Source: Thamnidium elegans
Lineage: Eukaryota > Mucoromycota > Mucoromycetes > Mucorales > Mucoraceae
NCBI GenBank assembly: GCA_025201345.1
Contig: JAIXMG010000004.1
Span: forward strand, 806,001-870,000
DNA: 64,000 bases
Direction: 5' to 3'
How positions within the stretch are numbered: the stretch's first letter is position 1; each line of letters starts with the position of its first letter. Made by a program: the position numbers and the translations under genes. Of the stretch, positions 22,291 to 51,725 are shown piece after piece. Below the pieces are notes generated by a model. That model was not told the DNA's origin. It worked only from the letters and a program-made list of their open reading frames with translations, and ran no database searches.

Positions 22291-25200
22291 CTAATTTTCA
22301 AGTGTTTGTTCAATCTGTAAATCACCAATTTCGACATGCTGACTATCATCATAGATATTTGCTACCAAAAATTCATCTCTAATATAAAAATCAGGTATCT
22401 TTCGACCTAATATTGAGCATATTTGTGCTTCAAACAGAGCTTCGTAGTTATTGGCAGTATAACTAATATCAAAGGAAAGACGAGAGTTATCAGTCATGGC
22501 TGTCGGATCATCCTCATCCACTTTCAAATAGATTTCGAACCGATGAATCTTTCGAAAGCTGCTAGAGACTAATTTGGATTCGTCTTGTGGTAAATCATCC
22601 AGGTCAGACCGATAAATAGCTACAGTACAAAAAAAAAAAAGGAAAAAAAAAGTTGGAATTATATTACTATAAAAAAAAAGAAACTTACTGGCGTAGACAA
22701 GACAATCCCTTTTAGCAAAAAACGTTTTTGAAATCTTATCTTCTAAAACTTTATCACCACGATGAGTGAAAACTATCAAATGATCAGGATTTAATTGAGA
22801 ATCCTTTGTATGATGAAACAATTCTACTTGTTGTTCAAAATCAGCTGCACTTAAATCAGATTCTAAATTATAAACATCGTGCTTTTTATCATTTCCATCC
22901 TTCTTTCTTTCGTTTTCAATATCGTCCTTATCTCCTGCGCTAAATTGTTTAATAGCATAAGCTCTAATATTAACAGCATAAGAGTGTTTGGAAACTCTTT
23001 CAGTAAAGTCTGTGGGACGGATACCATAGTGTGTAGCGCCTAACAGAGCTTCCTTGCCGTCACAGTCAGAAGGTATAATATGATTAACATCAACATTGAC
23101 AAGCGCCGAAATTTTTTTCATAAGAAAAAGCTCCAAAAAAGAATAGGCAGGTTTGTTAGTTTCGATTAATGCACCAAGTAAGAATATCTTATCAAGCTTG
23201 AATTTAGGTAACATAATATCAGCTTGTCTGGCAAAACGCTCTATTTCAGATGCTAAATCTTCAAGAGCAGGGAAAAGTATATATTCTAAAAGATCATATA
23301 CTTTTATAAGAGTAGTGCAGCATTTTGAATCAGTGATTTGAATATGTTGAATTTCACCGCTCTTCGAAAAATCCAAGCTGGTCTAATTTTTTATAAATAT
23401 GCGTGTATACGTTTAAAAAATGAATTGAATGGACTAACCTTTAAAAAATTAAGAAATCCCTTTTTAAGGTCTGAATAATAAAACGAGTATGGATCATGAC
23501 CATCTTTGCATTCAATACAAGCATTTTCTGTTACATATTTGTTCAAATTAAGAACAGTTCTATCAATAAAATCAAAATCAAACGTAACTGATTTTAAGCG
23601 TCTGACATTTCTACAATATCCGGCATCAGAATGATTACCTCTACCCTTAAGTTTGATAGACTCAAACAACGATATATAACAAGTATCATGGTACATGTTA
23701 ATTTGTAAGAAGTAATGGGTACAAGCAAGAGATTCTAAAAAGTGTTTCTTTTCAAAGTACATGGCTGAAGCATGATCACGATTGATTAATAAAAGGCGAT
23801 GAGCAGAATCTTCTGCAGAAGTAATACCGGCTTTTTCAACTATTTTACGCATTTCGGACTTATCGGTAAAGAACGGATAACAGTTTTCAGTGGTGATAAC
23901 ATATCTGTACCTACCCCTGTTCGAAAGAAGAGAGTTTGGGCCAGAAATTGTTTCGTAGACGTGGTTTAGTACAAGTTGCAAGTATTGACAAAGGTATTTT
24001 CGAAAATCTGCCTTGACAAGTGCCATTAATTTACTCGGCGTAATCAGTTTTTTGTGACCTCGATTAAAAGGATCATTAACACTAGCGCCCCAGTATGTTT
24101 TATCGTTAGTGGTTTCTTTTGCAGTGGGGATAAGGATGTTTTTTCCGTTTTCAGGCCTATAATAAATACATATCAGATTATATGGTACATACTATATCGA
24201 TATATTACCAATTAGTGATATCAACTATTTCACCAGATGTGCTTGTTAAATCTTTATAGGAGCATGATGTTGATTCGTATCCAATGTCTGTATACACGTA
24301 AATAGTTGCGACTTATTTAAGGAAAACATATGATAATAATAAAAATTCAAAATCTTACCCAAACAAATCAAAGTATCATATTTGTCTGTAGTAGTATATC
24401 CAAACTCATTCTTGACAATATCAGATTGCGGCACCTCTTTTACATCATCCGTACCATATTTTATAGCACCTTTCATTACAGCCAAAGGACCAGAATCAAC
24501 CAAGCTACCAATACGAAACTTGGTATGAGGAAAGAGATTACCTTTAACATAAAATCTTCTAAAGATCATCTTTTGCAAGAGAGGAGAGCTTGCGAATCCA
24601 CCAACAATATAAATACGCTTAACACTGCCGTTGACTTTTTTTATCTGATTCTCTATTAGATTTAGCGTAGATCTGATAACGCTATTAAAGACTTCTGTTC
24701 GTATAATGCTGTAAGGAACTACAAGTGTACAAACACCCCCACTTTTAGTATATTTAACGCCATCTGGTAAATACAGCTTCAGCTTGGGGACGATAATAGC
24801 ATCTTCCAACCTAATAGTAAAAGCTACAGAAAAATAAAAAATTAAACGACCGAATGTAATTACAAATACATATATAAAAAAAGCTTTACAATCCCCAAAA
24901 CGCTCTCTATGCAAATGTTTAAAATCTCCTAATTTACAAATAATACAATTATCGTCATTGGATTTATCTTCATCAATAGATATTTTAGAGATATCATTTG
25001 CATATGTCTCCAAAACTCTATAATGGTTACATTTAGGAAATTTAAATTCGCTCGAACGTCGACCAAAAACTGGCTACAATATAAAAAATGAAATATATTA
25101 GAGAGAAAAAAAAAGGGGGGGAGGGAGGATATTTCGTTTATGCATTTTTTTTTTTACTTTAATTTCGTTTATAAACTTTTTCATGATAGGTGCAAATAAT

Positions 25201-26217
25201 CCATCACGTTCGTCTTTTTCTTCTTTATTTTTTGGCGGTTCACCGTTATAAAAAAAACGCGTAAGAAGCTTATACATTTTCATGTCTATAAATGTAGATC
25301 CACATTTAGCACTACTACTGTTAGTCAATTGACAGTGACCAAAAGTACCGACAGGGTCGTTTTCAGATCGCTCTACACATTCAAAAGTAGCAAGTTTTAC
25401 AGTATAACCACCAGCATCACAAACAATATATTTATCTCCTAGTTTCATATCTTGCGAATCAGTCATTTCTAGGTCACAATATAAGGCAGCAGCAAGAGAT
25501 TCATTGATAATCAATAAACGGTTTTCATGATCTTGGTCATCAATCATTTTAGCTTTCTTAGATATGCTACGCATAACTGATCTTTCAGCACCGGCCCACT
25601 GAGCAGGTACAGTAATAACAAATCGAATTTTGCCGTTACTTCGCATCTGGTCAACAGTATAATTAAAAATCTCTGTAAAATAATCAATAATTGCGCCCAT
25701 ATTATCGTATTTCATCTTTTTAACATTGTTTATTTTATAATCGATGCCTTCTTGTGGAACAGACACAGGAAATTCTAATTTAAGCTTTTCTTTAACTAAT
25801 CGATACGGGCTTAGATTGCCATCTTCAATATATTTTTGCGCTGGCCCTCCCCAGTGTAATAAATGAAGCTGTCTATTGTAAATGCTAACTGAAGGTGTTC
25901 TGTATTCTATCGATTGTTGTCCTGGCCTATATACGAAACGAAAGATCGTAAGCGATAACACATTCCCCATCCTCCTTTTTTTTTAAAAAATAAATAAATA
26001 AATTTACCATTTTTTAACAGTTATTGCATTAGCTTCAAATCCCATTCGAGTCAGCTCTCCGTTTAGTAGAGAATCGATATTAGCATAAGTTGCTCCCGTC
26101 GAAATTGTACCAAAATCTATAAAATAACAAGTGTTATTCTATATTTTTCTTTCGTGATTATTCATGTTTATTACCAATAGTGATAATCCTTTCATATTCA
26201 GTGGGTATGAAAGCCAT
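22291..26217 (-). CDS. HSPA12-like double-module Hsp70 protein, subfamily F1 (copy A)
   Basis: Nine exons (26175-26217, 26008-26116, 25158-25926, 24890-25073, 24359-24823, 24209-24287, 23439-24156, 22689-23382, 22291-22619), 1,129 aa, stop TAG. Two Hsp70-type actin-fold ATPase modules lie in tandem. Module 1 has phosphate-1 loop IDFGTISTGATY, FVITVPAQW, phosphate-2 IVCDAGGYTVKLATFE and adenosine motif IYIVGGFASSPLL. Module 2 aligns with DIGYESTSCSY, YRYVITTENCY, LQINMYHDTCYISLFE and IFLLGALIE, all lacking the key Gly/Asp/Thr residues. The tail (RKIHRFEIYLKVDEDD, then RDEFLVANIYDD) is shared with the other F1 copies. No substrate-binding domain or lid is recognisable. Copy A is the most diverged F1 copy: even module 1 has GGYTVK in place of GGGTVD, so ATPase activity is doubtful. 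Exon 4 carries CNH and CxxC. It reads away from the divergent ARP4 gene. Confidence 0.9.
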
Positions 26218-28429: not shown

Positions 28430-28458
<29 letters not shown>

Positions 28459-28800: not shown

Positions 28801-30058
28801 GTCGTCGAGTTTTATTACCTACCGTCAAAGAAATTTGCATCTAAACTGTGTTTTCTAGACAACAATATTTTTATTTTCATGATGGTTAAACTTTCATAGT
28901 TTAATTAACAGGATAATCGAGCGATATACGGTGAGAGCACATGGTTTTCTAAATTATCAGTAATGATCTTAGTGTAATTACCTTTGATACTTTATCATCT
29001 TTTTAATCGTCGTCAAAATCTTCATCACTATCCTCATCGCTTTGTTGAATATCAGTAATTGATCCTTCTTCTTCCGGCATATAAAAATAAAAGTGATGTA
29101 GCGGTTAGTACAAGGTACATACATAAAGTAATAAGTTGACACTAGTTTATTTCACTTATTTTTAGTTAAGTAATCTCTTTTAAAGCTATTTTCTAGCCTC
29201 ATTGAGCTTGCTCCTAGTTCTGCAGAGATCAAGTCTACTTCACTAAAGTTTTCAGTAGAGTAAATGCTGACCTCTTATCACAACATATTTTTTATTTTTT
29301 AGAACCATGCTATGTCTGCTTTGACTATGGGAAGAGAAAAAAGGAAAAAAGCTTTAATATAAGCCGCGACTTATTTCATTAATACTGAGAAGCACATTGT
29401 AACAAAACTCTGGTTTATTTAAATATGACTAAAAGACTTTATGCCGATTCATTAATAGATAGCTCGGGAACATCTTCATCGACGGTCGAAACACCATTAT
29501 CAGCGGTTGCTTTAACTTTAATGGTTAAATCACCAACTTCAATAAGTTGTCTATCATCGTAAATATTTGCTACCAAGAATTCATCTCTGAAACGGTATTC
29601 AGGGATCTTCTTTCCTAATCTTGAACCAACTCTAGCTTCAAACTTAGCTTCATTGTTATCAGGGATAAGACGAATATCGAAATGAAGACGAGGTTTTTTA
29701 CCAGCTGTCATTGGATCATCTTCATCACGTTTCACATAGAGTTCAAATTGATGAATCTTTCTAAAGTGAGGGTTATTTGTCTTGACTCCTTCTGTAGGTA
29801 GGTCATCCGCTTCAGAAGAATAAATAGCTATATAGATAAAATATATATTTAGTTGCGTGAATATCACAGAGAGTGGTAATTTACTTACTAGCATAAACAA
29901 TACAGTCTTCGTGAGCATAAAACTTTTTAAAGATACCCTTCTTTTGGTCTTTTTCTAAAATCTTGTCACCTCGACGAATGAGATATGTCAAATCATCATC
30001 TTTACGATCAAAATCGGTCGTGTACAAGGAAGGGTTATGAGGAGATTGATAAAACAAA
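28790..30058. repeat. Segmental duplication block, copy 1
   Basis: About 1.27 kb that is nearly identical to 40190-41456. It includes the F2 relic, the spacer, the whole last exon of F1 copy B and the 3' part of its exon 8. Similarity falls sharply at about 30058, inside exon 8. The last exons of copies B and C encode proteins that differ, by eye, at only two adjacent residues (VK versus DE), while the rest of the two proteins differs much more. Confidence 0.85.
28805..29340 (-). pseudogene. Internally deleted F2 Hsp70-like relic 1
   Basis: Nucleotide-level similarity to the F2 gene at 35092-39045 is obvious in three blocks: around 28835-28860 (the AKFFD-like third motif, compare about 37600-37640), 29000-29260 (acidic linker and the end of module 1, compare about 37900-38260), and 29280-29335 (the start codon region, compare 39010-39070). 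The blocks between them are deleted and many stops are present. A near-identical copy lies at 40195-40740. Confidence 0.75.
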
Positions 30059-33000
30059 TCGATCTTTTCATCATTAATATGACCATAAGTAGATTCCACG
30101 TCGTAAAGTTTCTTTTTCAAGGCTTTTTTGTCTGTATTTTCTTTTTCTTTTTCTACTTCTTTAATTTTATTTTTCGCTTTAGAATCAAATTCTTTAAGAC
30201 CATACGCACAGACATTAACAGCATAAGACGTTCTGGCAACTCTTTCAGTAAAATGTTCAGGATGATTACCGTAAATTACAGCACCTAAAAGTGCTTCCTT
30301 TCCATTGTCTTTTGAACGATTGATAAATTCAGTTTTAATATTCATGATTTCAGAAATGTTATTAATGACGATACCCTCCAAAAATGTATAGTTAGTTTCA
30401 TCAGCTTCCAACAATGTACCAGATAAAAAGATCTTGTCAAAACTAAAACGTTGCATCATATCGGTTTGTGTTGCGAAACGATTTATTTCGGATGCGAAGT
30501 CTTTAACTGCAGGTCGGAATATATGCTCCAAGAGATCATACACTTTAATTGAGGCAATACAACATTTAGCATCAGTAATAGGAATATCTTGAGTTTCGTC
30601 ATTGTTATTAAAGTTTAATTTTGTCTATTTTAGGAGAGAAATAATCAGTATTACGAGTATATCAAATAAAATTAATAATCAACCTTAATATGGTTCAGGA
30701 AACCTCTCTTGAGTTCAGCATAGTAGGTAGGACTGTAGGTGCCATGACTTCCAGTACACTTAATGCAATCATTTGTTGAAACATAGCTATTTAAATAAGA
30801 GACAATTCTGCCGATAAAATTAAAGTCGAAAGTAGCTGATCTAACACTTCTTACATTTCTAAAGACTCCAGTGTCTTTTTCATCTGTCGAATCTATATCA
30901 GTACCACTGATTTTGGTATGTTCCATCAATGATAAATTACAAATATCGTGGTACATATTGATCAGTAATACATGGTTAGTGTAAGCAGATACGCTTGGAA
31001 AGTGTTCTTTTTCAGTATACATGGCCGCAGCAGTATCACGACCAATCAGTAAAAGACGCTCGACAGGGTCTTCTTTCGAGATAATGCCTGCTAATTGAGC
31101 AATATAACGCATTTCGGACTTGCTGAAAAACTGATAACAGTTTTCCATAGTAATGACATATCTGTATTTATCCTTGTCAGAAAGCTCTGGTTTAGTCTTG
31201 GCAATCGTATCATGAACGTAACCCAGTACAAGCTCCAAGTACTGACGAATATAGGCTCTTAAATCGGCTTTAACAATAGACATTAATTGACTGGGAGCAA
31301 TGAGTTTTTCGTGGTCAGGGTCAATAGGCTGTCTAACTTGGGCGCCCCAAGTTGTTTCTCCGTCAACTGTTTCTTTCGCAGTAGGGATCATGAAATTTTT
31401 CTCTTTTAGACCTGGCCTAAAACACATTCAAATTAGTTTAAATATAGTATAATAACAAAAAAAAAAAAAAAAAAAAATACAATACCAATCAGTGATTTCA
31501 GTCATATCGTCAGATTCGTTTGTCAAATCTCTGAAGGAGCATGATGTTGAAAGGTATCCAATATCTATATAATAGTACAATATAAAAAAATTTGAAATTA
31601 TTTTCACTTATATACAAATCAGGTCTTTACCTAAGCAAATTAATGTATTATATTGATCAACAGAGGTATATTCAAACTTTTTTTCGACAACATCCGTTTG
31701 AGGTTTTCTTCTGCTACCGTCAATACCGTACACCATGGCACCTCTCATTGCAGCAGAACTGCCTTTATCGTCAGTGATTAATGTACCAATTCTATATTGA
31801 GTATCGGGAAACGTAGTACCCTTTATATAGAAGGCTCTAAGTATCCTCTTTTGCAAATACGGAGAAGTTCCGAAGCCACCAACCAAATACGTACGATTAA
31901 TATCATTATTGGCTTTTTTTATCTGTCCATCTATAAGGTTCAATGTATGTTTTGTGACGTCTTCAAATACTTCTGTCCGTATGATGCTATACGGAATCGT
32001 CAGTTTACAAACACCAGCTTCAATTTTCCCCGTAACACCAGTAGGTAAATATAATTTCAACTTAGGTAAAGTAATAGCATCTTCCAATACCAGAATGATA
32101 GCTATAGAAAAGAGTATATAAATTAATGACTACTATGTAATGCCATTATATATATAAAAAAAAGCTTACAGTCTCCGAAATTTGATTTATGCAAATATTT
32201 AAAATCTTCTGCTTTACAAACAATACATTGTTTATCATTATGTCTACCTTCATCAATTGGTCCTTTGGAAATGGGACCCCTATGTGTCTTCAAATGCTCG
32301 TCATGGTTACATTTAGGGAATTTAAAATCTTTCGATCGGTTACCGAATACTGGCTACAATTAAAGAATCAGAGCTGCTTTTTTTTTACTAAAGTCATAAA
32401 TTTTTACCTTGATTTCGTTAATAAATTTGTCAATAACAGGAGAAAATAATTTATCGCGCGCCTTGATTTCTTCTTTTTCTACAGCTGGCTTACCATTGTA
32501 AAAAATACGTGTAAGAAGTTCACGCATTTTTTCGTCCACAAATGTAGAACCACATTTTTCACCACTGTCAGCCGTTAACTGACAACGACGAAAACTATCA
32601 GCAGGATCCCCTTCGACAGTTTTTACGGACTCAAAAGTTGCAAGATCTACCGTACCACCACCTGCATCACAAATAATATATTTGTCCCCTGGCTCCATAT
32701 TTGATAACTCAGTTTTTTTTTGCTCACAATGTAAGGTAGCAGCAGAAGATTCGTTGATAATCAATAAACGATTCTCGTGGTCTTCATCAGTAATTAAACC
32801 AGACTCTTTAGCCACAGTACGCATAATAGCTCTTTGTACGTCGTTCCACTGAGCAGGCACAGTAATAACAAAACGAATATTCTCCTTTTCAACAGAAATT
32901 TGACCAACACCACCAATATTTTTTTGAATTGTACTAACAGTATGATCAAAGATTTCTCTGAAATAATCAATAGTTGCTCTCATATTGTCATGTTCTGTTT

Positions 33001-33484
33001 TTTTGGCGTTGTTTGTTTTATAAATGGCTCCTTTTTGTGGAACAGATGAAGGAAGTTCCAGCTTGAATCTTTCTTTAACAATTTGACCGGATTTTAAGTT
33101 GCCATTCTCAATATACACTCGAGCAGCTTTACCCCAGTGCAATAAATGGAAGTTTCTATCGTAAATGTTGATTGAAGGTGTTTTGCTTTCAACTTTTGAC
33201 TGTTCTGGCCTAAAAGAAAAGAAAAAAAAAACGGTTAGTAAGTGGCACTTGTTTAGTTTGGTTTTATAAATAAATTTACCAACTTGTAACTACCGTAATA
33301 TCAGGATATTCTTTTTCCATCAGTTCTGTAGTAGATAGTTCTTCAGTAACAGAATAACATGTTCCGGAAAATGTTGTACCAAAATCTATAGAATAACAAT
33401 CGTTAATTTTTTTTCTTTGTAAGAATTTCTTTCTCTCTTACCGATACTAATAATGATTCCGTACTTGTGGTATCTAAAAGCCAT
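29439..33484 (-). CDS. HSPA12-like double-module Hsp70 protein, subfamily F1 (copy B)
   Basis: Nine exons (33442-33484, 33280-33385, 32408-33209, 32170-32353, 31631-32101, 31486-31564, 30684-31416, 29889-30624, 29439-29827), 1,180 aa. Module 1 keeps every Hsp70 ATPase signature: IDFGTTFSGTCY (phosphate 1), FVITVPAQW, IICDAGGGTVDLATFE (phosphate 2) and TYLVGGFGTSPYLQ (adenosine). Module 2 keeps the fold outline but not the residues: DIGYLSTSCSF, YRYVITMENCY, LLINMYHDICNLSLME and IFLSGTLLEADE. Exon 4 carries C-N-H and, after about 30 residues, C-x2-C; module 2 has CIKC followed by His. The tail has a Lys/Glu-rich linker and the FRDEFLVANIYDD end. HSPA12 proteins lack the normal Hsp70 peptide-binding domain; their biochemical role in fungi is little known. 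Function here is unknown; an ATP-driven switch regulated by an inert partner module is an inference. Confidence 0.92.
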
Positions 33485-33925: not shown

Positions 33926-34770
33926 GTACGCCGCAATTTATTTAACAAATGCTGAGAAATACATTACGAAAGTATCCCAGTTTACAGTGATTTCACTACT
34001 AATGTAAGGATTTGGGGAAAATAAAAAAATAAATTTGCGTATCTTTTTTGTAGAAATTTTTTTTAGTAAAAGACCATAATACGTTATACATTCTTACCAT
34101 GTATAATTATAAATAATAATGCAAAAAGAAAAAAAAGGAGACAACATTTTTTTCAATTTATTGTTGTCAGTTTCATTGTATCATCAGACCTAGAAGATGC
34201 TTAGCAGGAATATTGTATGCGGTATCCGGTTTTGTCCAGGCTTTTAACATAATCTACAATAAAAATAAAGTCCTTTGAGATTCTCGTACTTGTCCATAAT
34301 ATTTATAAGCTATTCTATTTTGTAAAAGGACGAATTTGGTTTTAAATTGACAGTGAAACCTATTTAAATATTACACACAATAAGAATTAGCTTGGTATTC
34401 GAATAGCTAACTTGGAAACGCCTTTATCTATTAGTTAAATTACCGACTTCAATAAGTAGTCTATCATCTTAAATATTTGCCACTAAGCGTTCTTCTCTGA
34501 AACGGTATTAAGGGATCTTCTATCCTATTCTAGTCTCGGATTTAGCTTCATTATTATTTGAGATAAGACGAATAACGAAGTGGAGACGAGGTTCGTTGTC
34601 AACTGTTGTTGGATCGTCTTCATCCAGTTTCACATAGAGTTCAAATTGATGAATCTTTCGGAATATACAGTTATCTGTCCTGATTCCATGTTGAAGCACT
34701 AGAAGAGTAAATAGCTAAAATATTTAGTTGCGTGAATATTATAGAAAAAGATAATTCACTAACTAGCATA
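33926..34770 (-). pseudogene. F1 Hsp70-like 3' relic
   Basis: The part at about 34430-34770 matches the last exon and the end of exon 8 of the F1 genes at DNA level (compare 29510-29910), with stops and indels throughout. The segment 33926-33990 resembles the spacer found just 3' of F1 copies B and C (compare 29360-29420). About 400 bp between the two pieces are unrelated and may be an insertion. Confidence 0.7.
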
Positions 34771-35091: not shown

Positions 35092-38000
35092 TTATTTAAT
35101 ATTTGAGTTTAACGAGTATGAATTTTTTGCTAAAGTATATTCTACCAAAGGCTTTTTGTTTTTCACTACAATAAGATCACATTTACGAACTATCTCCAAA
35201 GTTGTTTTCTTGCCTTTAGTCATTTCATAGATCTTTGAATTGATAAGTCTGTTTTGACATTTAATAGTAACAGTAGCGCCAATATCATCCATTTTAAGAC
35301 CAACATTAAACAGGATTGGATCACCCTTGTTAATTCCTTCAACTTCTGGTAGTTTAATTACTTCTTCCAGGATCTTGGCGTGTTTTCTGCTTACATATTT
35401 CCAGTGTTCTTCATTTTTTTCCTCCTTGAAATCACACGCAAAGACAGCTGAAGTATAATTTTTGTTAATAATCAAATAAATATATAAAGAGTGGCGTAAA
35501 AGATGTATTACCTATTACAGCATTATTGGGATAATCTACAATCACTGATCTATTGAAGAGTTTAAGACTTTCACCTTGTAAAGCGTCAGACTGACGGACA
35601 AAATACTCTAAGCGGTTTTTAGAGTACACCTCGTCTATACTTTCGCCATCTACATTCATACCATAACGGTCTACTTTATTACCAGAACGGTCTACTTTCT
35701 TATCCAAGCTATTCAAACTGCCGTCTGATTTATCAAAAGGTGTTCGTACCTCTAAAGCAATAGATTGACCAGCAAATTTGCCAGAAATCAAACGAGGATT
35801 TAAACCATAGGAGACGGCACCTTTGGAGATAGCAGCAACACCTTCCTCTGGAATTTTCACATCATACCTACCTGTGTACTCATTTTGGATACGCTGTTGC
35901 AAGTATGGGTTACGTGAAAAACCGCCAACTAACAAGATAGCTTTGATATCACTCCCACTTTTTAAAGCTTGATCTAGCTGTTGCTGAATAAGTACCAGAA
36001 TTTTTTTAATAATATGATCAAAGATTTTCTCCTTTATATCTGCATGTGTAATTTTGAGTTTTGTATTTCTTTCTATCAAGTTATATTGTTTTGCTTCTGG
36101 CGTGTTTGGAATATTGGTTATTCTTCGCTCAGCGGGTAATTTGACTTCGCAATATCTATCATTGGCAGAATCTGGCATGAAATTACACTATCGATTTAAA
36201 AGCTTATGAATAAATGTTTTACATATACAAATATATATTAATTACCTTTATGTTAGAAATAAATTCGTCCATAGTAGAGTCAAATCTTGTATCGATTTCG
36301 TTAACTTCTAAACCGATATCTTTATAAAATCCCAACAAATAATCCTTGAATGCTTTATCAAGATAGGTCGATCCACAAGTATCACCAATACCACTACCGA
36401 TTTGACAAATCATTGGGTCACCAGTCTCTTGATTACGCGTCAGACGGAAAGTCACCAAATCCACTGTTCCCCCACCAGCATCACAAACAATAAAATTAGA
36501 ATCAATATCAGGATTTTTAGGGTCCCGAATAAGGTTCGAGTACTTCTTTTCACAAAAGAGAGCAGCGGCTTCAGGCTCGCTGATAATAAGAAGTTCATCT
36601 AGTTCCTCTTTTTTAATGATAGTGGCTTTGATAGCAGCTTGTGCCATCGTTTCTCTAGCAGATGTAGTCCACATGGCAGGGACAGTAAGAACAAATTGAA
36701 GTTTGGGCTCACTTCCGGACGATTTGAAGAACCGAGTAAAGCCTTTTTTATCCTTCTTGAACTTAGATTCGGCAATAATATGTCGGATTACGTGATCTTT
36801 GACTTCTCTAAGGTAATCAGCAATTACTTGGACAGCATCTACGCTTTTACGAACCTTCCCTTTTTTAGGTTTATACGGAACTTGGCTTACACAAATGACT
36901 GGATCTTTATAATCATAGTCTTCTTTCATTTTTTTAATGTCCGGATTTCCTTCACCATATTGTGCGTCAACAGCTTCAGGAGAAAGGAACAACTTGAAGT
37001 TACCTAAAAGACTGAGATCTCTGTAGCGCTCAACATTTTGCTTTGCTTCTTGACCCCACAGCTTTGTCTTCATATGTTTATCGTACATTAGTAACGTGGG
37101 CGTTTTTCCATAAGAAATAGCGTTTCCTCCAGGCCTATTATTAATAAAGCAAATTTAGATCCATTATATAAACAAGTACAAATAACTAATATTACCAGCC
37201 TGTTTCAATAGTATGAATATATTTAATATCGTTAGCATGGGGATCTTTTGGATCAGCGTATGAACACCCGGTAAAAGTTGTACCAAAGTCTAGGAATATT
37301 TAGAGAAGTGAAAATTAGCATATGCTACCTATCCTTATATTTCAATCACCTACCAATACCAACAATAAAGTCAAAATCGTCTTTAGACTTTTTGTTAGAC
37401 TCGTTTTCGTCTTTAATATTTTCATTTTGTGATCCTGAGCTCGAAGGCTTGGATCCTGTGGCACTAAAAAAAGGAATCTGTACGTCTTTGTCTTTAGCTT
37501 TTAATCCAGAAGAAACTGCGCCTAAAGAGACAGCATCGATATTGGTATCTTCAATAAGAGAAACAAGTTTTGAAAAACCTCCAGATAATTTCTCAAAGAA
37601 GTTTGCATCTGAACTGTATTTTCCAGACAAGAAAATATTCGAGTCATTATTATTATCACGATCAACTTTCATAATATAATTAACAAGATAATCAAGGTAA
37701 GGTGAGAAAACATATTTTCCTAAATCTTCAGTGGTAATATTAATGGGATCGTTATTGACATCGAGAATATGGAAAAGCGGTGAATTCTCTTCCTCTTGCT
37801 CTTGTCCAACTTCAAGATTATCGACTTGGTCTGAGGATTCATCTTCAATGGAACTTTCTTGTAATATAAATTCTAAAGGTTTGCTACTTTTAGTATCTTC
37901 GTCGTCAAAATTATCTTCGTCGAAATCATCTTCGAAATCAGTTTCATCATCTTCTTCTTCTTTATTGTCTTCATTAACTTGTTGAATATTAGTACTTTCT

Positions 38001-39045
38001 CCATTTTCGTGAAAAGAAGACTGAGATAGCGGTTAGTACAAGATATATACATATATATATAAAGTAATTGCTTACCTTAAGTTCCTTCACAAAAATTTCG
38101 ACTAATTTGCTAATAATGCTTTCATTTAATTTCAACTTGGACTTGTTTTCAATTAAGTAATTCTTAAAGCTATTTTCTAAGACCATCGAGCCTTTTCCTA
38201 TTTCTTCAGAGATCAACTCTACTTCACTAAAGTTTTCGGTAGAATCAGCTTTAATCTTCGAAACACCAAAAGAGCTATGACCAATATCGCAGACAAGATA
38301 AGTTTGATCTGGAATTATTTTAGTAATCAATCTATCTAGACTAAGGCAATGAAAGGCAGTAGCTTCAGCTTCAGATAAAAAAACGAGATTATCTTTCTCG
38401 GTAATGATTTCAGCCTCCATAAAACAGTCAGCAAAGAAATCATTTAAAAAGGTAGGACAAGAGAGACAATAGCCAAGATTTTCGAGCTTAAAATCATCTT
38501 CAAACTTATAACTTTTACGAAAGTCTTTGTGTTCCTTTAAACACTTTATGGCCAATGCATGGAATGTTTTCAAGTAATCAGTAACAACCTTTTGGATGGT
38601 TAATCCTTCCATTTTTTGTTCGAGTTCTTCGTTTGCTTGATCGATATTAAGCGTATATTGTTTAATATTGTCAATATAAACATCTTCTTCATCTATAGGC
38701 GCTGCGCTGAGCGGGTCGTTATGTTTAGAAATGCCACAATGTATATCACCATTAGCTTTATATAAAATAGTTGTAAGAAATTGTCCAGGTTCACTTTTAT
38801 ATGATTCACCATTCCTAAAATAATATTTTATATCAGAAGAGAGGTTTTTGCTTAAAACAGGGTAAAACCAACCATGTATTCACAGTAAATTTCGAATGAG
38901 GTCTGTTTACATGAGCAATTGAGAGGCCAGAAGAAACGGCACCAAAATCTAAATAACATTATTAGACCACCATTCATCGTATTAAGCCCTTTAGGAATAA
39001 ATACTAACCTATTCCCACAACATATTTTTTATTTTCTAAAACCAT
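35092..39045 (-). CDS. HSPA12-like double-module Hsp70 protein, subfamily F2 (copy D)
   Basis: Eight exons (39009-39045, 38873-38948, 38076-38814, 37354-38020, 37196-37289, 36246-37134, 35512-36187, 35092-35447), 1,177 aa. Here module 1 is the degenerate one: VGIDFGAVSSGLSIAH, YCLSCP in place of the VPAxW strand, LVCDIGHSSFGVSKI in place of DAGGGTVDL, and IFLSGKYSSDANFFE. Exon 4 then encodes a long acidic linker rich in Asp/Glu before module 2 begins with VGIDFGTTFTGCSYA. Module 2 is canonical: FVLTVPAMW, IISEPEAAALF, IVCDAGGGTVDLVTF, GDTCGSTYLD and ILLVGGFSRNPYLQ. The tail includes FACDFKEEKNEEHW and a beta-rich C-terminal region of about 110 residues, the expected position of an HSPA12-type tail. 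The arrangement is the mirror image of the F1 genes. All reading frames are intact. Confidence 0.92.
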
Positions 39046-40189: not shown

Positions 40190-41456
40190 GTTATAAGACG
40201 ATCGTCGAGTTTTATTATCTACTGCCAAAGAAATTTGCATCTAAACTGTGTTTTTTAGACAACAATATTTTATTTTCAAGATAAACTTTCATAGTTTAGT
40301 TGACAGGATAGTCGAGCGATATACGGTGAGAGCGTATGTTTTTCTAAATTATCAGTAATGATCTTAGTGTAATTACCTTTGATACTTTATCATCTTTTTA
40401 ATCGTCGTCAAAATCTTCATCACTATCCTCATCGCTTTGTTGAATATCAGTAATTGATCCTTCTTCTTCCGGCATATAAAAATAAAAGTGATGTAGCGGT
40501 TAGTACAAGGTACATACATAAAGTAATAAGTTGACACTAGTTTATTTCACTTATTTTTAGTTAAGTAACCTCTTTTAAAGCTATTTTCTAGCCTCATTGA
40601 GCTTGCTCCTAGTTCTGCAGAGATCAAGTCTACTTCACTAAAGTTTTCAGTAGAGTAAATGCTGGCCTCTTATCACAGCATATTTTTTATTTTTTAGAAC
40701 CATGCTATGTCTGCTTCGACTATAGGAAGAGAAAAAAGGAAAAAAGCTTTAATGTAAGCCGCGACTTATTTCATTAATACTGAGAAGCACATTGTAACAA
40801 AACTCTGGTTTATTTAAATATGACTAAAAGACTTTATGCCGATTCATTAATGGATAGCTCGGGAACATCTTCATCGACGGTCGAAACACCATTATCAGCG
40901 GTTGCTTCATCTTTAATGGTTAAATCACCAACTTCAATAAGTTGTCTATCATCGTAAATATTTGCTACCAAGAATTCGTCTCTGAAACGGTATTCAGGGA
41001 TCTTCTTTCCTAATCTTGAACCAACTCTAGCTTCAAACTTAGCTTCATTGTTATCAGGGATAAGACGAATATCAAAGTGAAGACGAGGTTTTTTACCAGC
41101 TGTCATTGGATCATCTTCATCACGTTTCACATAGAGTTCAAATTGATGAATCTTTCTAAAGTGAGGGTTATTTGTCTTGACTCCTTCTGTAGGTAGGTCA
41201 TCCGCTTCAGAAGAATAAATAGCTATATAGATAAAATATATATTTAGTTGCGTGAATATCACAGAGAGTGGTAATTTACTTACTAGCATAAACAATACAG
41301 TCTTCGTGAGCATAAAACTTTTTAAAGATACCCTTCTTTTGGTCTTTTTCTAAAATCTTGTCACCTCGACGAATGAGATATGTCAAATCATCATCTTTAC
41401 GATCAAAATCGGTCGTGTACAAGGAAGGGTTATGAGGAGATTGATAAAACAAATCG
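40190..41456. repeat. Segmental duplication block, copy 2
   Basis: Partner of 28790-30058: same order of F2 relic, spacer, F1 last exon and 3' part of exon 8, with only scattered substitutions and small indels visible. The left edge lies near the shared ATAAGACG...TCGTCGAG sequence. Confidence 0.85.
40195..40740 (-). pseudogene. Internally deleted F2 Hsp70-like relic 2
   Basis: Near-identical to the relic at 28805-29340 and carrying the same internal deletions, so both descend from one already broken copy. Blocks correspond to the acidic linker, the end of module 1 and the start codon region of the F2 genes. It sits 3' of F1 copy C just as its twin sits 3' of F1 copy B. Confidence 0.75.
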
Positions 41457-44400
41457 ACTTTTTCATCATTGACATGACCAAAAGTAGATTCTATATCGTA
41501 AATTCTTCTTTTCAAAGCTTTTTCGTTTTTATTTTTTTCTTTTTCTTTTTCTTTTTCATTTTCATTTTCATTTTCATTTTCATTTTTGATTTCATTTTTG
41601 ATTTCTAGTTGAGCTTGTTCTTCAAATTCTTTAATTCTATACGCACGGATATTAACAGCATAGGAAGTTCTTGCGACTCTTTCAGTGAAATATGTAGGGC
41701 AGTTACCGTAAATTGCGGCGCCTAAAAGTGCTTCCTTTCCATTAACATCTGAACGTTTAATATAGCTAGTTTCAACACCCATGGCCTCAGAAATGTTGCT
41801 AAAAACAATACGTTCCAAAAATTCGTAGTTTGATTCGTTTGCTTCCAACAAAAAGCCCGATAAAAGGATATTGTCAAAACTGAAACGTTGGGTCATATCT
41901 GCTTGAGTGGCAAAGCGATTTATTTCAGATGCAAAGTCTTTTGCGGCAGGACGAAATACATACTCCAAGAGGTCATATACTTTAATAGAGGCAATACAAC
42001 AACCAGTATCAGTAGTGGGAATATCCTGAGTCTCATCATTATTATCAAAGTTTAATGATGTCTATTTTGGGAGAGAGAAAAAGAAAAATTAGCGTTACGA
42101 ATATGGAGAATATTGTCATAGACAAACCTTTATATACTCGAGGAAACCTCTTCGAAGTTCAGCATAATAAGTAGGATTATAAGTTTCATGGCCTTTATTG
42201 CACTCGATACAAGTGTTTGTTGATATGTAATTATTCAAATTAGAAACGATTCTACCGATAAAGTCGAAATCAAACGTAGCAGACCTTACACTTCTAACAT
42301 TTCTGAAAAGTTTAATTTGGTTGTCTTCGTTGGTATATTTAGAATCTATATCTGTACCACTAAGTTTGGTATGTTCCATTAATGATAGATTACAGATACT
42401 GTTGTACATATTTATTTGTAAAATATGATTAGCGTTGGCATCCTTGTCTGAAAAGTATCGTTTTTCATTATACATAGCAGTAGCATTATCGCGACCAATT
42501 AATAAAAGACGCCCAAACGAATCTTCTTTCGAGACGATGCCCGCTAATTGAGCAATATAACGCATTTCAGACTTGCTGTTGAAGAATTGATAACAGTTTT
42601 CCATAGTAATGACATATCTATACTTGCTCTTGTCTGTGAGCTGTGAATCGGCTTTGGCAATTGATTTGTGAACATGACCAAGGACAAGTTTAAGATATTC
42701 GCAAAGATAATGTCTCAAATCAGCTTTGGCAATTGACATTAGCTTGCTGGGGGAAATGAATTTGGTGTGATCAGAGGCAATACGATCATTGTGGTCATTA
42801 TGACCAGAACCAATAAGCTGATTAACTTGAGCCCCCCAACTTGTTACTTTGTCGACTGTTTCTTTTGTTGTAGGGATCATAAAGCTGTCTTCCTGTAAAC
42901 CGGGCCTATAGTACATCCTTATTAATTTACATGGGATATAATAAAGAAGAAGAAAAGAATACATTACCAATCAGTTATGTCAGTCATTTCATTAGATTCA
43001 TTTTTTAAATTTCTGTAAGAACACGATGTTGTAAGGTACCCAATATCTGTACGGGGATGAAAAAAGTTATAATTAAAAAAAAAAATCTGATGGGAATAAA
43101 AACCAAGACTTACCTAAGCAAATTAGAGTATTATATTCATCAGTGGAAGCGCACTCAAATGTTTTTTCGACAACATCGGTTTGAGGACTTCTTCTACTAC
43201 CATCGATACCATATACCATAGCGCCTCGCATAGCGGCAGAATTACCAGCAGTATCAGTGATTAATTGGCCTGACTCGAACTCGGAATTCGGGAAGTTACT
43301 GTCTTTTTTATAAAATGTTTTGAGGATTTTCTTTCGCAAATATGGCGAGCCACCGAAACCTCCTACAAGATATGTACGCGAAATACCACCGTTGGCCTTC
43401 TTTATCTGACGATTTATAAGTTCTATCGTAGCATCAACGACTGGATCAAATACTTCTTTTCTTATGATAGAATATGGAATTACGAGTGTACAAGTACCGC
43501 CGACCTTTGTACATTTGACGGTTTTTGGTACACGTGTGTGCAATGTAGGTACGATTAGTGAATCTCGTAAAACTATTGTGATAGCTATATAGAATATAAA
43601 TGGGTTAAATAGCATATTAGGACGAGTTTTAATATAAAAACTTACAATCTCCAAAATTTTTTCTGTCTATGTATTTGAAGTCTTCAAGTTTACAAATATA
43701 ACATTGATTATCATCAGGATCTCCTTCACCAGTATCTTCAACAGGAAGATCGAACTTGCCACTCTCCAAAAGTTCAAGGTGATTACATTCGTCAAACTTA
43801 AATTTCATCGAACGTTTACCAAAATTTATCTATGAATTAAAAGCTTAGAAAAGTTATCGAATTTATGTTTATACATGTATATACATATACCTTATAATTA
43901 GTTATGAATTTGTCAATTTCAGGAGAAAAAAATTTTTCGCGCTTTTTTTCTTCTTCTTTTCCGATTTCGACACCTTTATCTTGATAACAGTACTTAGTAA
44001 GGAGTTCACGCAACTTTTTATCTATGAATGTAGAACCACATTCTTTACCGCTATCAGCAGTCAATTGACAACGACGGAAACTACCAGGAGGATCTCCAAT
44101 AACATTTTTTACTGACTCGAAGGTCGCAAGATCTACTGTACCACCGCCAGCGTCACAAATGATATATTTATCTCCCGGCTTTAGGGCACCCATACTGGTT
44201 TCTCTTTGCTCACAATGTAAAGTAGCAGCCGAAGATTCGTTGATAATCAATAAACGATTCTCGTGGTCTGCATCAGTAATTAAACCAGACTCTTTAGCCA
44301 CAGTACGCATAATAACTCTTTGTACATCGTTCCATTCAGCAGGCACAGTAATAACAAAACGAATATTCTCCTTTTCAACAGAAATATGGGCACTACTGAT

Positions 44401-44963
44401 AGCTAATTTAATTGTACTAACAGTATGATCAAAGATTTCTCTGAAATAATCAATAGTTGCTCTCATATTGTCATGTTCTGTTTTTTTGGCGTTGTTTGTT
44501 TTATAAATGGCTCCTTTTTGTGGAACAGATGAAGGAAGTTTCAACTTGAACCGTTCTTTAACAATTTCTCCAGGTTTTAAGTAACCATTTTCTATATGAC
44601 TTCGGGCCGCTTTACCCCAGTATAGTAAATGAAAGTTTCTATCATAAATTGTGATTGAGGGCGTTTTATTTTCTTCTGTGGATTGTTCCGGCCTAAAAAT
44701 AAAGAGTGGTTAGTGAATGACACTTTTTGTTTTATTTTAAGAGATAATTACCAACTGGTAACTTGAGTTATTTGCGGATAGGTCTTTTGGTTAAAATCTT
44801 TGACTGATAAACCGGAAGTAACAGAATAACAAGTTCCTGAGAAAGTGGTTCCGAAATCTAAATAATAACACGTATATTTATTAAATTCTTTTCCTAGGTA
44901 TTTTGCTCTCACTTTCTTACCAATACTGATAATGAATCCATACTTGTGATATCTGAAAGCCAT
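40834..44963 (-). CDS. HSPA12-like double-module Hsp70 protein, subfamily F1 (copy C)
   Basis: Nine exons (44921-44963, 44752-44857, 43891-44692, 43646-43829, 43114-43584, 42968-43046, 42128-42905, 41284-42061, 40834-41222), 1,209 aa. Module 1 is canonical (IDFGTTFSGTCY, FVITVPAEW, IICDAGGGTVDLATFE, TYLVGGFGGSPYLR); module 2 is degenerate (DIGYLTTSCSY, YRYVITMENCY, LQINMYNSICNLSLME, ILLSGFLLEANE). Exons 1-6 match copy B in length exactly, although much of the protein differs. The linker in module 2 contains an expanded Asn-Glu/Lys-Glu run encoded by a 6-bp repeat (about 41535-41595), shorter in copy B and absent from copy A. Exon 4 holds C-N-H and C-x2-C. Its last exon and part of exon 3 are nearly identical to copy B, so these regions have been homogenised. 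All frames are open and every splice border is standard. Confidence 0.92.
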
Positions 44964-45369: not shown

Positions 45370-45830
45370 TATTTCTTTCTATCAATTATGTTGTTTTGAT
45401 GAGTCTATGTTTGGAATGCTGTTTGATTAATAGTTTTAAGGATACATGACTTGCGATTACCTCTATGTTAGCAACAAAGTGGTCCATAACCTAGACAAAG
45501 TATGTGTTGATGTAACTAACGTCTAAACCAATGTCTTTTAATTTCCAATAAGCAATCCTTGAAAGTTCTATATCGTTAAATCCGTCCAAAAGTATCACCA
45601 ATATCATTACCGATTTGACAAATCATTGGGATACCATTCTCTTTATTACGATTTAAACAAAAAGTAGCTAAATTTACTGTCTCTCCACCAGAATCACAAA
45701 CAATGAAATTATAATTAGAATCCGCATCAGGATTGTTAGGATCCCAAACAAGATTCCAGTGTTCCTTTTCACAAACTATAGCAGAGCCATGATCTTCTTT
45801 TCCCTTCATTTTTTTTTTAGCTTCAACATT
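45370..45830 (-). pseudogene. F2 Hsp70-like module-2 fragment
   Basis: Minus-strand frame 45576-45809 reads FIVCDSGGETVNLATF and MICQIGNDIGDTFG, matching the phosphate-2 region of F2 module 2 (IVCDAGGGTVDLVTF, ICQIGSGIGDTCG). Flanking blocks match exon 6 and exon 7 of copy D (compare 36060-36600) with indels and stops. The catalytic Asp/Gly are altered (DSGGETVN). No other part of the gene remains. Confidence 0.8.
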
Positions 45831-46013
45831 TCTTGTACCATACGTGCTTCCGATTTTCTGATGTATTTACTAGTGAGTATGGTATAACGAAGTGATATTA
45901 ATCCTTCTTGGAGTTAGCTATTGTGTGCCTAAAAACTGACTGGCTGACTATGCGAACGGTTACTATGATATCTAAACTAGTAGAAAGGTTCCGTTTATTA
46001 TTTTATTTATATA

Positions 46014-47521: not shown

Positions 47522-47818
47522 GATCTATTAACTATAGTTGAACCCTCATTATTTTTATTGTTTGCCTTTTTTTATTTTATTTTTATTTTTTAACCACAGT
47601 AAAGGAGTTTGCATTATCTACAGTCACGTTGCTTTAGTTTTATAAAAAAAAAAAAAGAGTTTCAGATAAAATGAATTCAGTAAGAAAGCCTTGTGCTATT
47701 GAAGTGAAATAAAATAATAATATAAAAAGATATGAGCAATTTTGTTATACTAACTGTATTTTATTTATTTATTTTGCATTTAATCCTATTAATTATTTTT
47801 ATGGGTCAATAATTAGCG

Positions 47819-50800
47819 CTAACTTGAACCATATGCAAATCGCGATTTTGTTAAAGAATACTGAACCAAAGATTTTTTGTTTCTGAATACAACAAAATTA
47901 CATTTACGCTCCATTATTAACTTTCGACCGTTATCATTAGCCTTTCCGGGGATAATATTATTTACACTTTCAATTACGACGGTGACACCAATATGATCCA
48001 TTTTGAGGGAAACATCGAACTCGATATTTGTACCTTTTTCGAGACCTTCAACTTCTGGCAATTCGATTATTTCTTCCATAATTTTGCTATGCTTGTTGCT
48101 TACATATCTCCAGTTTTTGTCGTCAGCTTCTTCTCCTTCTTTGAAATCGCAAGAAAAAATAGCTAGAATGTAAAAATGTGAGTAAATATAACACATATTG
48201 TAACGTTTAACTTGTAATTTACCTATCAAAACATTCTGAGGATAATTTATACTAACGGTTTTATGATATATCTCGCCTTGAATAGGATCCATTTTCTTAA
48301 CAAAGTATTCTAAGCGATTTCTAACGAACTTCTCACCTTTAGGACCAAGTACTTCTTTATACTTATTTTCATTTTTCGTCTCAAAGGGTGCTTGTACTTC
48401 TAAAGCGACGGATTGACCCGCTAATCTTGTGGTAACCATACGAGGATTTAAACCGTAAGAGACGGCACCATGAGAAATAGCTGCAACGCCTTCAGCAGGG
48501 ACACAAATACCATACAGGTTGTGATAATGGTTCTTGATACGATTTTGCAAGTACGGATTTCTCGAAAACCCTCCAATCAATATAATACTTTTAATTTCGC
48601 GTGAATCGTCTTTGGCTTGTTTTATTTGCTTGTTAATAAGGCGAATAATATTATCAATAATCGGATCAAAAATTTCCTCCTTCATAACTGTGTCCATCAC
48701 TCTGATTTCTGTGCGTGATTCTCTAAGCATATATTTACCAGTTTTTCGATCATATGGTATTGGACGTTCGGTAGGTAATTTGATATCGTTATAACCATCT
48801 TTATCATTATCTGGGTTGAATTTAATCTAATGTTTTATGAGATTAATACTAAATTATATAAATCTATGATATCCTACCTTTATTTTAGTAAACTGGTCCA
48901 TAACAAAGTTAAAGTCGGTATTGTATAAATTGACGCTAACGCACATGTCCTCGTAAAATTTCAATATATACTCCTTAAAATTGCTGTCAAGATAAGAAGA
49001 GCCACAAGTATCACCAGAACCCTCACCAACTTGATAAATCATTGGTTTACCAGTCTTTTCGTGTTGTTTTAAACCAAAGGTGACTAAATCGACTGTACCA
49101 CCACCAGCATCACAGACGACAAAGTTAGATTCACGTTCAGGTTTAGCAGGGTCACGAATAAATTTCGAATATCCCTTGTCGCAAAAGAGAGCAGCTGCTT
49201 CAGGTTCAGTTATAATGCGGAGTTTATGTAGCTCGTTTTTCTTAATGATACCCGCTTCAATAGAAGCCTGAGCCATAGTTTCTTTAGCAGATGCTGACCA
49301 CATGGCCGGGACGGTAAGAACATAGCGAATATTAAAGTCTTCCTTCGTTTTTTGGCGGCTAAACAGACCGCGTAAAAGGTTTTGTTTGATTTCGGGGCCA
49401 ATAATTTTTTTAATTACGTGGTCGTGGAATTTTCTGAGGTAATCAGAGATAATATCAATAGCATCAACTTTATCATGATTATGATCTTGCTTCTTCCTGG
49501 TACCTCCTTCAGTTTTAACAGAATTTTTGAAATTATTTTGATAGGCCATCTTTTGAATCTCAGCATTATTTACACCGTAGTAAGTTTCAATAGATTTAGG
49601 TGATAAGAATAGTTTAAAGTTTCCCAAAAGATTTAGGTCTGAATTGGCATCAACTTTTTGCTTGGCCTCTTCACCCCAAAACTTGGGCTTCATTCTTCTA
49701 TCATACATAATCAATGTTGGTGTTTTGCCAAAACCGAACTTGTCTCCTCCAGGCCTATAATAATAACCAATTGAATTAAATATACATTTAAATTAGACGT
49801 TATACTTAATATTACCAGCCATCTGTGATTGTCTTGATCTGAACTTCTTCATCATCTTTAAGCCCTTTAAGTTTAGCATAAGAACATCCAGAATATGTTG
49901 TTCCAAAATCTAATATTTTATAATAGAAAATATTAGCATAAAAATAATAGCATTTCGTTTATTTGTTTACTTACCAATACCAATAACAAAGTCAATTTTT
50001 TTTTCTTCTTCCTTTTCCTTTTTCTCTTCTTTTTCTTCCTTATCTTCTCTTTTTTTCTTTTCTTCTTTTGTTTCTTCCGGTAATTTTTCCTTGGATGACT
50101 TTTCTTTTTTAGGGCTAAAAAAAGGTGTTTGCAAGTCATGAAATCTTAATCCAAAAGAAACTGCGCCCAAGGAGACTATATCAACACTGTTGGTATCATC
50201 AACAAAAGAGACATACTTCTCGAACTTTCCATTGTTTACAGTCGTTAATTCGTCAAAAAAGTGGGCATCTGAACTGTAATATCCCGAAAGAAAAATTTTG
50301 GCTTCACCTTTATTTTTACTATCCTTCTCCAAAATATAATCAGTGACATATTTAATATAGGGCTCGAAAACATTTTCGTTCAAGTCGTGTTCGGAAATTT
50401 CGACAGTATTACCGCTCAAATCTAGAAGGGAAAAGACGAACGCGGTTTCTCCTTCCGCAACTCCGAGATTTTCAACCGAGTTTTCGGTAACTTCTTGGGA
50501 TTTGTTTTCATCATCACTATAGTCATCATCACTATAGTCATCATCACCATAGTCATCATCACCATAGTCATCATCATCATATTTTGCAGCTTCTTCTTCT
50601 TCTGCTTTTTCTTGAGCTCGAAGTTCCTCTTCCTCCTTTTCGGTTACTCCGACATGTGTCACACTAAATGTGTACTTTAAAAAAAAAAGCATTAATTTTA
50701 GAATAATTATATATATTAAGAAAATAAAATAATCACCTTAATTTCATCTATGAACGTTTCGACTGTAGTGTCAATAATACTTTGATTTAAATTCAAGCCG

Positions 50801-51725
50801 TTCAAGTATCTTCTAAAGTAATTTTCCAAGTTCATTGATCCTTGTCCTGGCTCTTCAGAAATTAAGTCTACTTTACTTAAGAGTTCAGTAGTATCAGCCT
50901 GGATCTTCGACATACCAAAAGAGCAGTGACCAATATCGCACACAAAGTATTCTTGATCATGCACAATTTTTGATTTTATTCTATCTAAACTAAGACAGTA
51001 GTAAGCAGAAGCTTCGACTTCGGTCACACATACGAGTCGATAACTAAGGTCTTCCGATTCAATGATACCAGCATCAACGAAACATTTCTCCATAAAGTTC
51101 TTTTGAGACTTGGGGCAAGATAAACAGTAACGAATATTTTCTAGTTTAAAGTCTTCTTTAAATTTATCACTTTCGCAAAAGTCTTCTTGACTCTTTAAAC
51201 ATTTCATAGCCAACCCATGTAATTTTTTTAAGTAATCAGTAACAACCTTTTGAATGGTTAAACCTTCCTTCTTTTGTCCGAGTTCTTCATTCGCTTGGTC
51301 AATGTTCAGGATATACTGCTTAATATTGCTAATATAAACATCCCCTTTACCCCTAGACGCTTTATCATTTGCTGTATTAGAAAGGCCACAGATTATAGTG
51401 CCATCAGCTTTATACAAAATGGATGTAAGAAATTGTTTGGGACCTTTAGTTTTTGACTTTTCTTTCTCATCTTTCTTTTTCTCTTCCCTAATAAATCAAT
51501 TTAGAACAATTCTTATTTAATTTATTTAAAATTAAGGCAGTATTTACCACTCGTTCACAGTGTATTTTACAGAAGGTTTTCCTGTATGAGCGATTGATAC
51601 ACCCGAAGAGATAGCGCCAAAATCTAGAAAAAATGATGTCAGAGGGTCACTCTTACGACTAATACTATTTTGACGCGTAAATACTAACCTATTCCAACCA
51701 CATACTTAATATCTTTTAAGGACAT
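47819..51725 (-). CDS. HSPA12-like double-module Hsp70 protein, subfamily F2 (copy E)
   Basis: Eight exons (51689-51725, 51548-51623, 50737-51487, 49975-50674, 49816-49909, 48878-49754, 48223-48826, 47819-48162), 1,160 aa. Module 1 is degenerate (VGIDFGAISSGVSIAH, YCLSCP, FVCDIGHCSFGMSKI, IFLSGYYSSDAHFF); module 2 is canonical (IGIDFGTTYSGCSYA, YVLTVPAMW, IITEPEAAALF, VVCDAGGGTVDLVTFG, GDTCGSSYLD, IILIGGFSRNPYLQ). Exons 1, 2 and 5 have exactly the same lengths as in copy D. The linker of exon 4 carries an Asp/Tyr-rich tandem repeat and later a long Lys/Glu run just before module 2; both differ in length and sequence from copy D. The C-terminal beta-rich tail (FSCDFKEGEEADDKNW) is conserved with copy D. 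It is the right-hand end of the array; no further Hsp70-like sequence is seen to its right. Confidence 0.92.
50509..50580. repeat. 15-bp coding minisatellite
   Basis: Nearly five tandem copies of a 15-bp unit (ATAGTCATCATCACT and variants) within exon 4 of F2 copy E. They encode repeats of Asp-Asp-Asp-Tyr-Gly/Ser in the inter-module linker. Likely length-variable between strains. Confidence 0.85.

Follow-up and report, generated by a model that had tools for sequence, protein, structure and literature searches.

The window analysed here is a 64,000-nucleotide stretch, C34:806001-870000, of the 34.1 Mb genome (64 contigs) of Thamnidium elegans (Mucorales, Mucoraceae). Its minus strand carries, at window positions 22291-51725, an array of five genes, each encoding two Hsp70/HSPA12-type modules in a row. 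The usual HSPA12 architecture has one nucleotide-binding domain (NBD) per chain, whereas gene models and profile comparison find two modules in every gene of the array, as the original prediction had claimed. The genes are of two types, F1 and F2, told apart by which NBD, or head, is canonical (live) and which degenerate (dead):

47819..51725, minus strand: F2a, 8 exons, 1160 amino acids (aa); dead NBD with acidic insert, canonical NBD, C-terminal beta domain (curated exon model, motifs)
40834..44963, minus strand: F1a, 9 exons, 1209 aa; canonical NBD, dead NBD, C-terminal beta domain (curated model)
35092..39045, minus strand: F2b, 8 exons, 1177 aa; dead NBD, canonical NBD, C-terminal beta domain (curated model)
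29439..33484, minus strand: F1b, 9 exons, 1180 aa; canonical NBD, dead NBD, C-terminal beta domain (curated model)
22291..26217, minus strand: F1c, 9 exons, 1129 aa; catalytic letters lost in both NBDs (curated model, motifs)

These models come from a simple spliced gene finder followed by hand correction through copy-to-copy comparison, and all are predictions made from sequence. The genes had been described as open from start to stop. None is a single open frame, since introns split each of the five and the longest listed open frame within the array is 361 aa, but no internal stop is left once the 38 introns (all GT-AG, 51-84 nt, 7-8 per gene) are removed. F1a agrees at 99.5% with the public T. 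elegans model INT48_006144, and F2b at 100% with BDF21DRAFT_491033 over 1160 of its 1177 aa; both public models are consistent with the exon models derived here. F1b, F1c and F2a have no equal among the public models compared. The closest protein to F2a among the relatives compared is P0115 (69%), and F1b agrees at 82.6% with P0006 of Helicostylum. The two types had also been said to alternate together with relics; three relics are present, but the minus-strand order is F2-F1-F2-F1-F1, an incomplete alternation.

The array products are assigned to the HSPA12 branch of the Hsp70 superfamily, with the predicted architecture NBD-NBD-beta-domain. All four module classes (first and second modules of F1 and F2) align at 99.9%-100% probability with a single-head HSPA12 profile of 681 columns, in an hhalign comparison run without an unrelated control profile; the HSPA12-type identity originally proposed is borne out to this extent. 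F1 module 1 covers profile columns 123-544 and F2 module 1 columns 127-527, which is the NBD part. F1 module 2 covers columns 125-680 and F2 module 2 columns 127-656, nearly the whole profile. By this evidence module 1 is an NBD alone in both types and module 2 an NBD plus the C-terminal beta region, which makes F1 and F2 mirror images as to the dead head, not as to the place of the beta region. Scanned single exons and relatives matched the canonical Hsp70/DnaK family (PF00012) only in part, at 17.5 to 35.8 bits. Canonical Hsp70/DnaK chains have an EEVD-type C-terminal end; the array chains end in NESA, TLEN, YGSS or SNIK.

The full set of HSPA12 phosphate-1, phosphate-2 and adenosine motifs is present in module 1 of F1a and F1b and in module 2 of F2a and F2b, but neither in the other halves nor in F1c. 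For the phosphate-2, connecting and GG regions, the alignment included seven HSPA12-like proteins (one of them, P0146, later found to be two-headed) and two canonical Hsp70s of T. elegans, whose models lack the first exon, so that phosphate-1 stands outside the comparison. The first module of F1a and F1b reads IDFGTTFSG, INES, DAGGGTVD and VGGFG, and the second module of F2a and F2b IDFGTT, EPEAA, DAGGGTVD and GGFSRNP. F1 module 2 has DIGY, then R-D and NMY-C, with GG and phosphate-2 missing; F2 module 1 has IDFGA-SSG, TEVEA or SEAEA, DIGHxSFG and SGxYSSD, again with phosphate-2 and GG missing. Three copies had been credited with a canonical first and a degenerate second module; this holds for F1a and F1b, but F1c (IDFGTISTG and DAGGYTVKL in module 1) departs from the F1 rule.

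Searches with F1a and F2a found 114 and 60 relatives, respectively, of which 53 of the 174, picked by name and rank, were inspected. Module order is F1-type in 27 (P0001-P0027) and F2-type in 22 (P0115-P0136), two of them the array's own genes and some with incomplete modules. The source organisms named for them are Thamnidium, Helicostylum, Mucor flavus, M. saturninus, M. mucedo, M. circinelloides, M. bainieri, Parasitella and Backusella. A look for two-module proteins in other Mucoromycota had been proposed, and the same module order is indeed modelled in eight other Mucorales species, in every case in predicted proteins, most of them named hypothetical.

Motifs were counted over class alignments of these proteins, with the duplicates P0001 and P0116 removed; P0028, P0137, P0138 and P0157 never entered, nor did the later finds of a profile search, and a row with a gap at a motif was set aside for that motif. 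Residue numbers follow bovine Hsc70 (D10, D199, D206, E175); a solved D206S mutant of Hsc70 (1qqn) is among the structure matches listed. In F1 module 1, GG is kept in 28/28 readable rows, D199 in 27/28, canonical phosphate-1 in 18/22, and canonical phosphate-2, D206 and the pair of catalytic Asp residues in 14/28 each. Module 2 of F1 has neither phosphate-2 nor D199 (0/29 each), no canonical phosphate-1 (0/28) and no GG (0/27), with D10 in 28/28. F2 module 1 lacks phosphate-2, D206 and GG throughout (0/23 each) and has E175 in 14/23. F2 module 2 has GG in 22/22, both Asp in 20/23, canonical phosphate-1 in 18/23 and canonical phosphate-2 in 13/23. Phosphate-2 and GG are thus gone from every readable row of the dead heads, and live heads, above all those of F1, are often damaged too. 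F1 second heads have a signature of their own, D-x-G-Y in nearly all readable rows and an HDTCHL-like stretch in most.

Many F1 proteins of Thamnidium, Helicostylum and M. flavus, though not all F1, have cysteine and histidine letters in both modules: module 1 with CxH...CxxC and module 2 with CxxCxxxH (in F1b they include C332 and C363 of module 1, and C252 and H259 of the module 2 piece). A zinc site was considered but is not proposed for F1 in general. The module 1 letters are gone from P0020-P0022 and P0025-P0027 and altered in P0014-P0019, P0023 and P0024, and the module 2 CxxC is gone from P0015-P0019, P0023-P0025 and P0027.

Do the degenerate halves still belong to the actin/Hsp70 fold? 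In profile comparison they align with single-head HSPA12 proteins at 99.9% over 507 columns (F1 second head) and 99.95% over 380 columns (F2 first head), the same run without an unrelated control; the original prediction would have fallen had these halves proved to be something other than Hsp70-fold domains, and the profiles point the other way. We infer that the dead heads keep the fold. Structures were predicted for the full chains of one F1 relative (mean predicted local distance difference test score, pLDDT, 75) and one F2 relative (mean pLDDT 72), the fold of the dead heads being judged by profile comparison. Within the F2a dead head, residues ~315-370 form a repetitive acidic insert (YDDDDYGDDDYGDDD), a region of low confidence in the relative's predicted structure.

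Three introns recur at the same places in ten of ten heads: a phase 1 intron at I/L-D, a phase 2 intron within a W codon and a phase 0 intron following a K, mostly IK. The beta region of second modules holds a further phase 1 intron, and module 1 of the F1 genes also has an extra intron. The same intron map in both NBDs indicates whole-module duplication or fusion. The comparison with ordinary family members rests on two complete single-head HSPA12 models of T. elegans, a third locus (L047) having an incomplete model; one of the two, L042 (contig C30, ab initio), has the I-D, W and IK introns in the same phases as the array heads, plus a fourth in phase 1. As modelled, the proteins are two fused copies of the module, the first cut off after the NBD and the second keeping the C-terminal beta domain.

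A tree of 50 modules picked from the four classes, after removal of three long rows, places F1 module 1, F1 module 2 and F2 module 1 each in a single clade (100/100) and F2 module 2 in a clade (98/97) that includes P0137, a relative of F2 whose first module is cut. Branching order is near-identical in F1 modules 1 and 2, with P0025 and F1c differing in place, as expected if the two have travelled together since before the Backusella/Mucor split. An approximately unbiased (AU) test of six groupings of the four classes rejected none (p 0.249 to 0.606), so one fusion with opposite losses, two fusions, and a register shift in a tandem array all stand. The tree program warned that long branches unite the two dead classes.

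We used a simple Nei-Gojobori count to estimate ratios of nonsynonymous to synonymous change (dN/dS), which are rough given dS of 1.0-1.6. For module 1 they are 0.22 (F1a/F1b), 0.34 (F1a/F1c) and 0.30 (F1b/F1c); for the NBD of module 2, 0.16, 0.22 and 0.24 in the same pairs; and for F2a/F2b, 0.30 in module 1 and 0.32 in module 2. The dead head's ratio is therefore equal to or below the other head's in the same pairs. In none of the pairs F1a/F1b, F2a/F2b and F1b/F1c does the proportion of nonsynonymous differences (pN) equal or exceed that of synonymous ones (pS) in any 60-codon window with synonymous change; one converted window has zero changes. That window reflects exchange between copies, as follows:

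40192..41574, minus strand: tract read as gene conversion, common to 28792-30173; 96.2% over 1389 columns

The tract spans the end of exon 8, exon 9 and ~640 bases past the stop of F1a and F1b, with a shorter patch in module 1, and F1a and F1b agree at 54-81% in most 150-column windows outside it. It is, on this pattern, a recent gene conversion. Three relics also lie in the array:

45456..45866, minus strand: relic of an F2-type second module; 45456-45775 against F2b 36241-36556, 75% DNA identity; open piece 45579-45866
34427..34690, minus strand: relic of an F1 C-terminal domain; 69% protein identity with stops, 81% DNA identity
28653..28800, minus strand: short relic of an F1 C-terminal domain; 79% DNA identity to 29526-29672

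Elsewhere in the genome, protein searches found at least the following loci. F1-type genes lie on C34 (three), C23 (three), C26 and C4, plus a divergent one on C30; F2-type genes lie on C34 (two), C26, C13 and C1, with a further copy on C28 that has many stops. At phosphate-2, the F1 first heads in ab initio models of C23, C26 and C4 read GGGTAN, GGVTLG, GGSTIN, GGNTVN and GGATVN, so that of eight F1 copies only F1a and F1b have the full motif, as does the ninth, divergent copy on C30. F2 second heads are canonical on C26 and C1 and read GGLTVN on C13. Two loci on C15 match P0028, a protein whose first half is F1-like and canonical and whose second half goes unrecognised by the module profiles.

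F1 adjoins F2 on one strand on both C34 and C26, in the order F2 then F1 on C26, like F2b-F1b; F1 stands alone on C23 and C4, and F2 alone on C13, C28 and C1. Consecutive locus tags in M. flavus are F1 (MFLAVUS_002446), F2 (002447) and F1 (002448), and in M. saturninus F1 (INT47_012672) and F2 (012673). In Helicostylum the tags are two apart (HPULCUR_001502, F2, and 001504, F1), and in M. mucedo two contigs, matched by size only, each appear to carry one F1 and one F2. Counting T. elegans, the two types are linked in five species, which gives indirect support to a possible partnership of F1 and F2. A pair duplicated as a unit would explain the linkage without interaction.

The architecture was followed further with a profile search, which returned 929 proteins. 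In the best 120 of the 929, the listed matches from Rhizopus, Phycomyces, Lichtheimia, Absidia, Cunninghamella and Mortierella are of a length expected for single-head proteins. A one-by-one scan of proteins of at least 850 aa, plus four others, added an F2-like group (P0188, P0190 and P0192, from M. circinelloides and Parasitella). Two HSPA12 modules per predicted chain, as in the array, also occur in M. fragilis and M. saturninus (P0222, P0138), with a first head damaged at phosphate-2 and a canonical second, and outside the order. Two Rhizophagus models (P0185, P0187) have canonical phosphate-1 and phosphate-2 in both heads, the first without a beta part. A Microbotryomycetes sp. model (P0186), perhaps merged genes, has both heads canonical and both modules whole. 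Two bivalve models resemble those of M. fragilis and M. saturninus. In Mya arenaria (P0252) the first head reads NAGGVSVN, with phosphate-1 and GG kept, and the second is canonical; in Dreissena polymorpha (P0146) the first head begins after phosphate-1 and reads NHESDIIH, and the second is again canonical. These models suggest that two heads are not confined to the Mucorales, the bivalves being perhaps an independent case.

Other genes lie in and beside the array. An actin-family gene (26849-28429, plus strand) stands between F1b and F1c; of the solved chains, Actin-like protein 6A comes closest to its exon 1. The stretch from 46017 to 47260 (minus strand), between F2a and the F2 relic, holds two open pieces, possibly the remnant of another gene; for the 297-aa piece Pfam gave no match at 0.001. 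Beyond F2a are ordinary neighbours: a deoxyhypusine synthase (53572-54721, plus strand), a major facilitator superfamily (MFS) transporter (56003-57600, minus strand) and a TRIP12-like HECT ubiquitin ligase (59227-63946, minus strand).

We tentatively favour the reading, possible though well short of assured, that the dead head is an in-chain regulator or scaffold of the live head and that F1 and F2 may cooperate. The dead head would act on the live head within the chain, as Ssz1 and Hsp110 do for Hsp70 as separate chains. In F2 the live head would drive its own beta domain, with the dead head in front as a built-in gate. In F1 the beta domain sits on the dead head and may hold ligand statically; the ATP-driven switch would then come from the live head or from a partner F2. 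Paralogues with both heads damaged could be pure scaffolds, and F1 and F2, as side-by-side genes, might work together. Retention of the dead head is supported by its conservation across several genera, by purifying selection and by the introns that the heads share.

Several observations weigh against this reading. The second catalytic Asp is lost in half of the readable F1 first heads, and an ATPase-driven cycle therefore cannot apply to F1 as a rule; of the original pairing of an active with a pseudo-ATPase half, the conserved dead head is supported and the generality is not. For the F2 genes the original description was right as to a canonical second module, but their first module is only partly degenerate. 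D199 is kept in 21/23 readable rows and D10 in 10/12, phosphate-1 being canonical in 2/12, and with these Asp equivalents mostly kept F2 first heads may still bind nucleotide. The two dead classes align with each other weakly (88.6%, 220 columns). The F2 relative's predicted structure has a predicted template modelling score (pTM) of 0.48, and of the best 50 structure-search matches each, 46/50 for the F1 model fall within residues 6-511 and 47/50 for the F2 model within residues 512-992, mostly on live heads, and so carry no information on the dead-head fold. The second complete single-head model, L046, has only the W intron in common with the array heads, its first intron lying two residues further on, and the intron agreement is not fully independent because exon models were corrected by analogy between copies.

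Other explanations have to be set beside regulation or scaffolding by the dead head. The main one, which we consider rather unlikely, is that the dead head is a passive structural spacer that lost ATP binding by drift and kept its fold for stability or for presentation of the beta domain, in an array that expands and contracts through tandem duplication. The frequent decay of live heads (second Asp lost in 14/28 F1 first heads), the three relics and the many stops of the C28 copy fit such a history, whereas the conserved signatures of the dead heads and their dN/dS, as low as or below the other head's, do not. Tandem copies that arise and die out, leave relics and undergo gene conversion would also suit sensors of non-self or microbes, whose diverging copies form an innate-immune or allorecognition repertoire. 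This is unlikely: Pfam at E 0.1 found no NB-ARC, NACHT, effector or death domain in 22 F1 and 23 F2 proteins, and pN stays below pS in each 60-codon window with synonymous change in the three paralogue pairs, leaving the allorecognition role once suggested with little support. The suggested stress role, in its classical heat-shock form, fares no better, as no perfect three-unit heat-shock element lies within 1 kb upstream of the five starts and only two occur in the 64 kb (8342 and 50217), weaker elements not having been scanned.

A stronger version of F1/F2 cooperation would make the two an obligate complex, in which each live head pairs with the other chain's dead head in a two-chain, four-head Hsp70-type machine; the reciprocal degeneration would then mirror heterodimeric enzymes with complementary dead sites. 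We hold this to be very unlikely. It is highly improbable that the fusions are artefacts in which adjacent single-head genes were read as one. Public models are predictions too, and the 2201-aa, four-module F1+F2 model P0175 (M. saturninus INT47_009542) resembles two merged neighbours; a native-looking F2 start with Met after a shortened F1 end makes merged gene models likelier there than a true fusion. In 5/5 array genes, however, module 1 has no beta domain or stop of its own and the frame continues into exon 1 of module 2, and the fusion is modelled in eight other named species as well.

Among known systems, proteins of the HSPA12A/HSPA12B type and fungal single-head "actin-like ATPase domain" proteins resemble the array proteins, by profile, in NBD motifs and in the C-terminal region; they have one NBD per chain and no dead head, unlike the two-headed array proteins. 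Ssz1, the atypical Hsp70 of the ribosome-associated complex, is among the fold matches listed for the live heads. It is an Hsp70-fold protein that works beside a canonical Hsp70, but as a separate chain paired with the J-protein Zuo1. Hsp110/Sse1 proteins are nucleotide-exchange factors, Hsp70-fold partners that regulate an Hsp70 NBD; Foldseek lists Sse1 among its matches for the F2 model, and it too is a separate chain, whereas the array heads share one. JAK kinases and mammalian hexokinases have two homologous halves per chain, one catalytic and one regulatory, the same live/dead tandem plan in other protein families. Literature searches over open-licence papers returned no description of two-head HSPA12 proteins, nor of a live/dead head pair in the Hsp70 superfamily, and the main text of a T. 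elegans genome paper (PMC7928374) mentions neither Hsp70 nor heat shock.

The array thus looks like an apparently undescribed variant of the known HSPA12/Hsp70 family. Live/dead pairs of one fold per chain are a classic route to allosteric control. The two opposite, genome-linked arrangements, together with the both-canonical Rhizophagus form and the comparable forms of other fungi and of two bivalves, offer a natural series in which to study the control of one Hsp70-type NBD by another. They also pose a concrete structural question for dozens of predicted two-head proteins that are mostly named "hypothetical".

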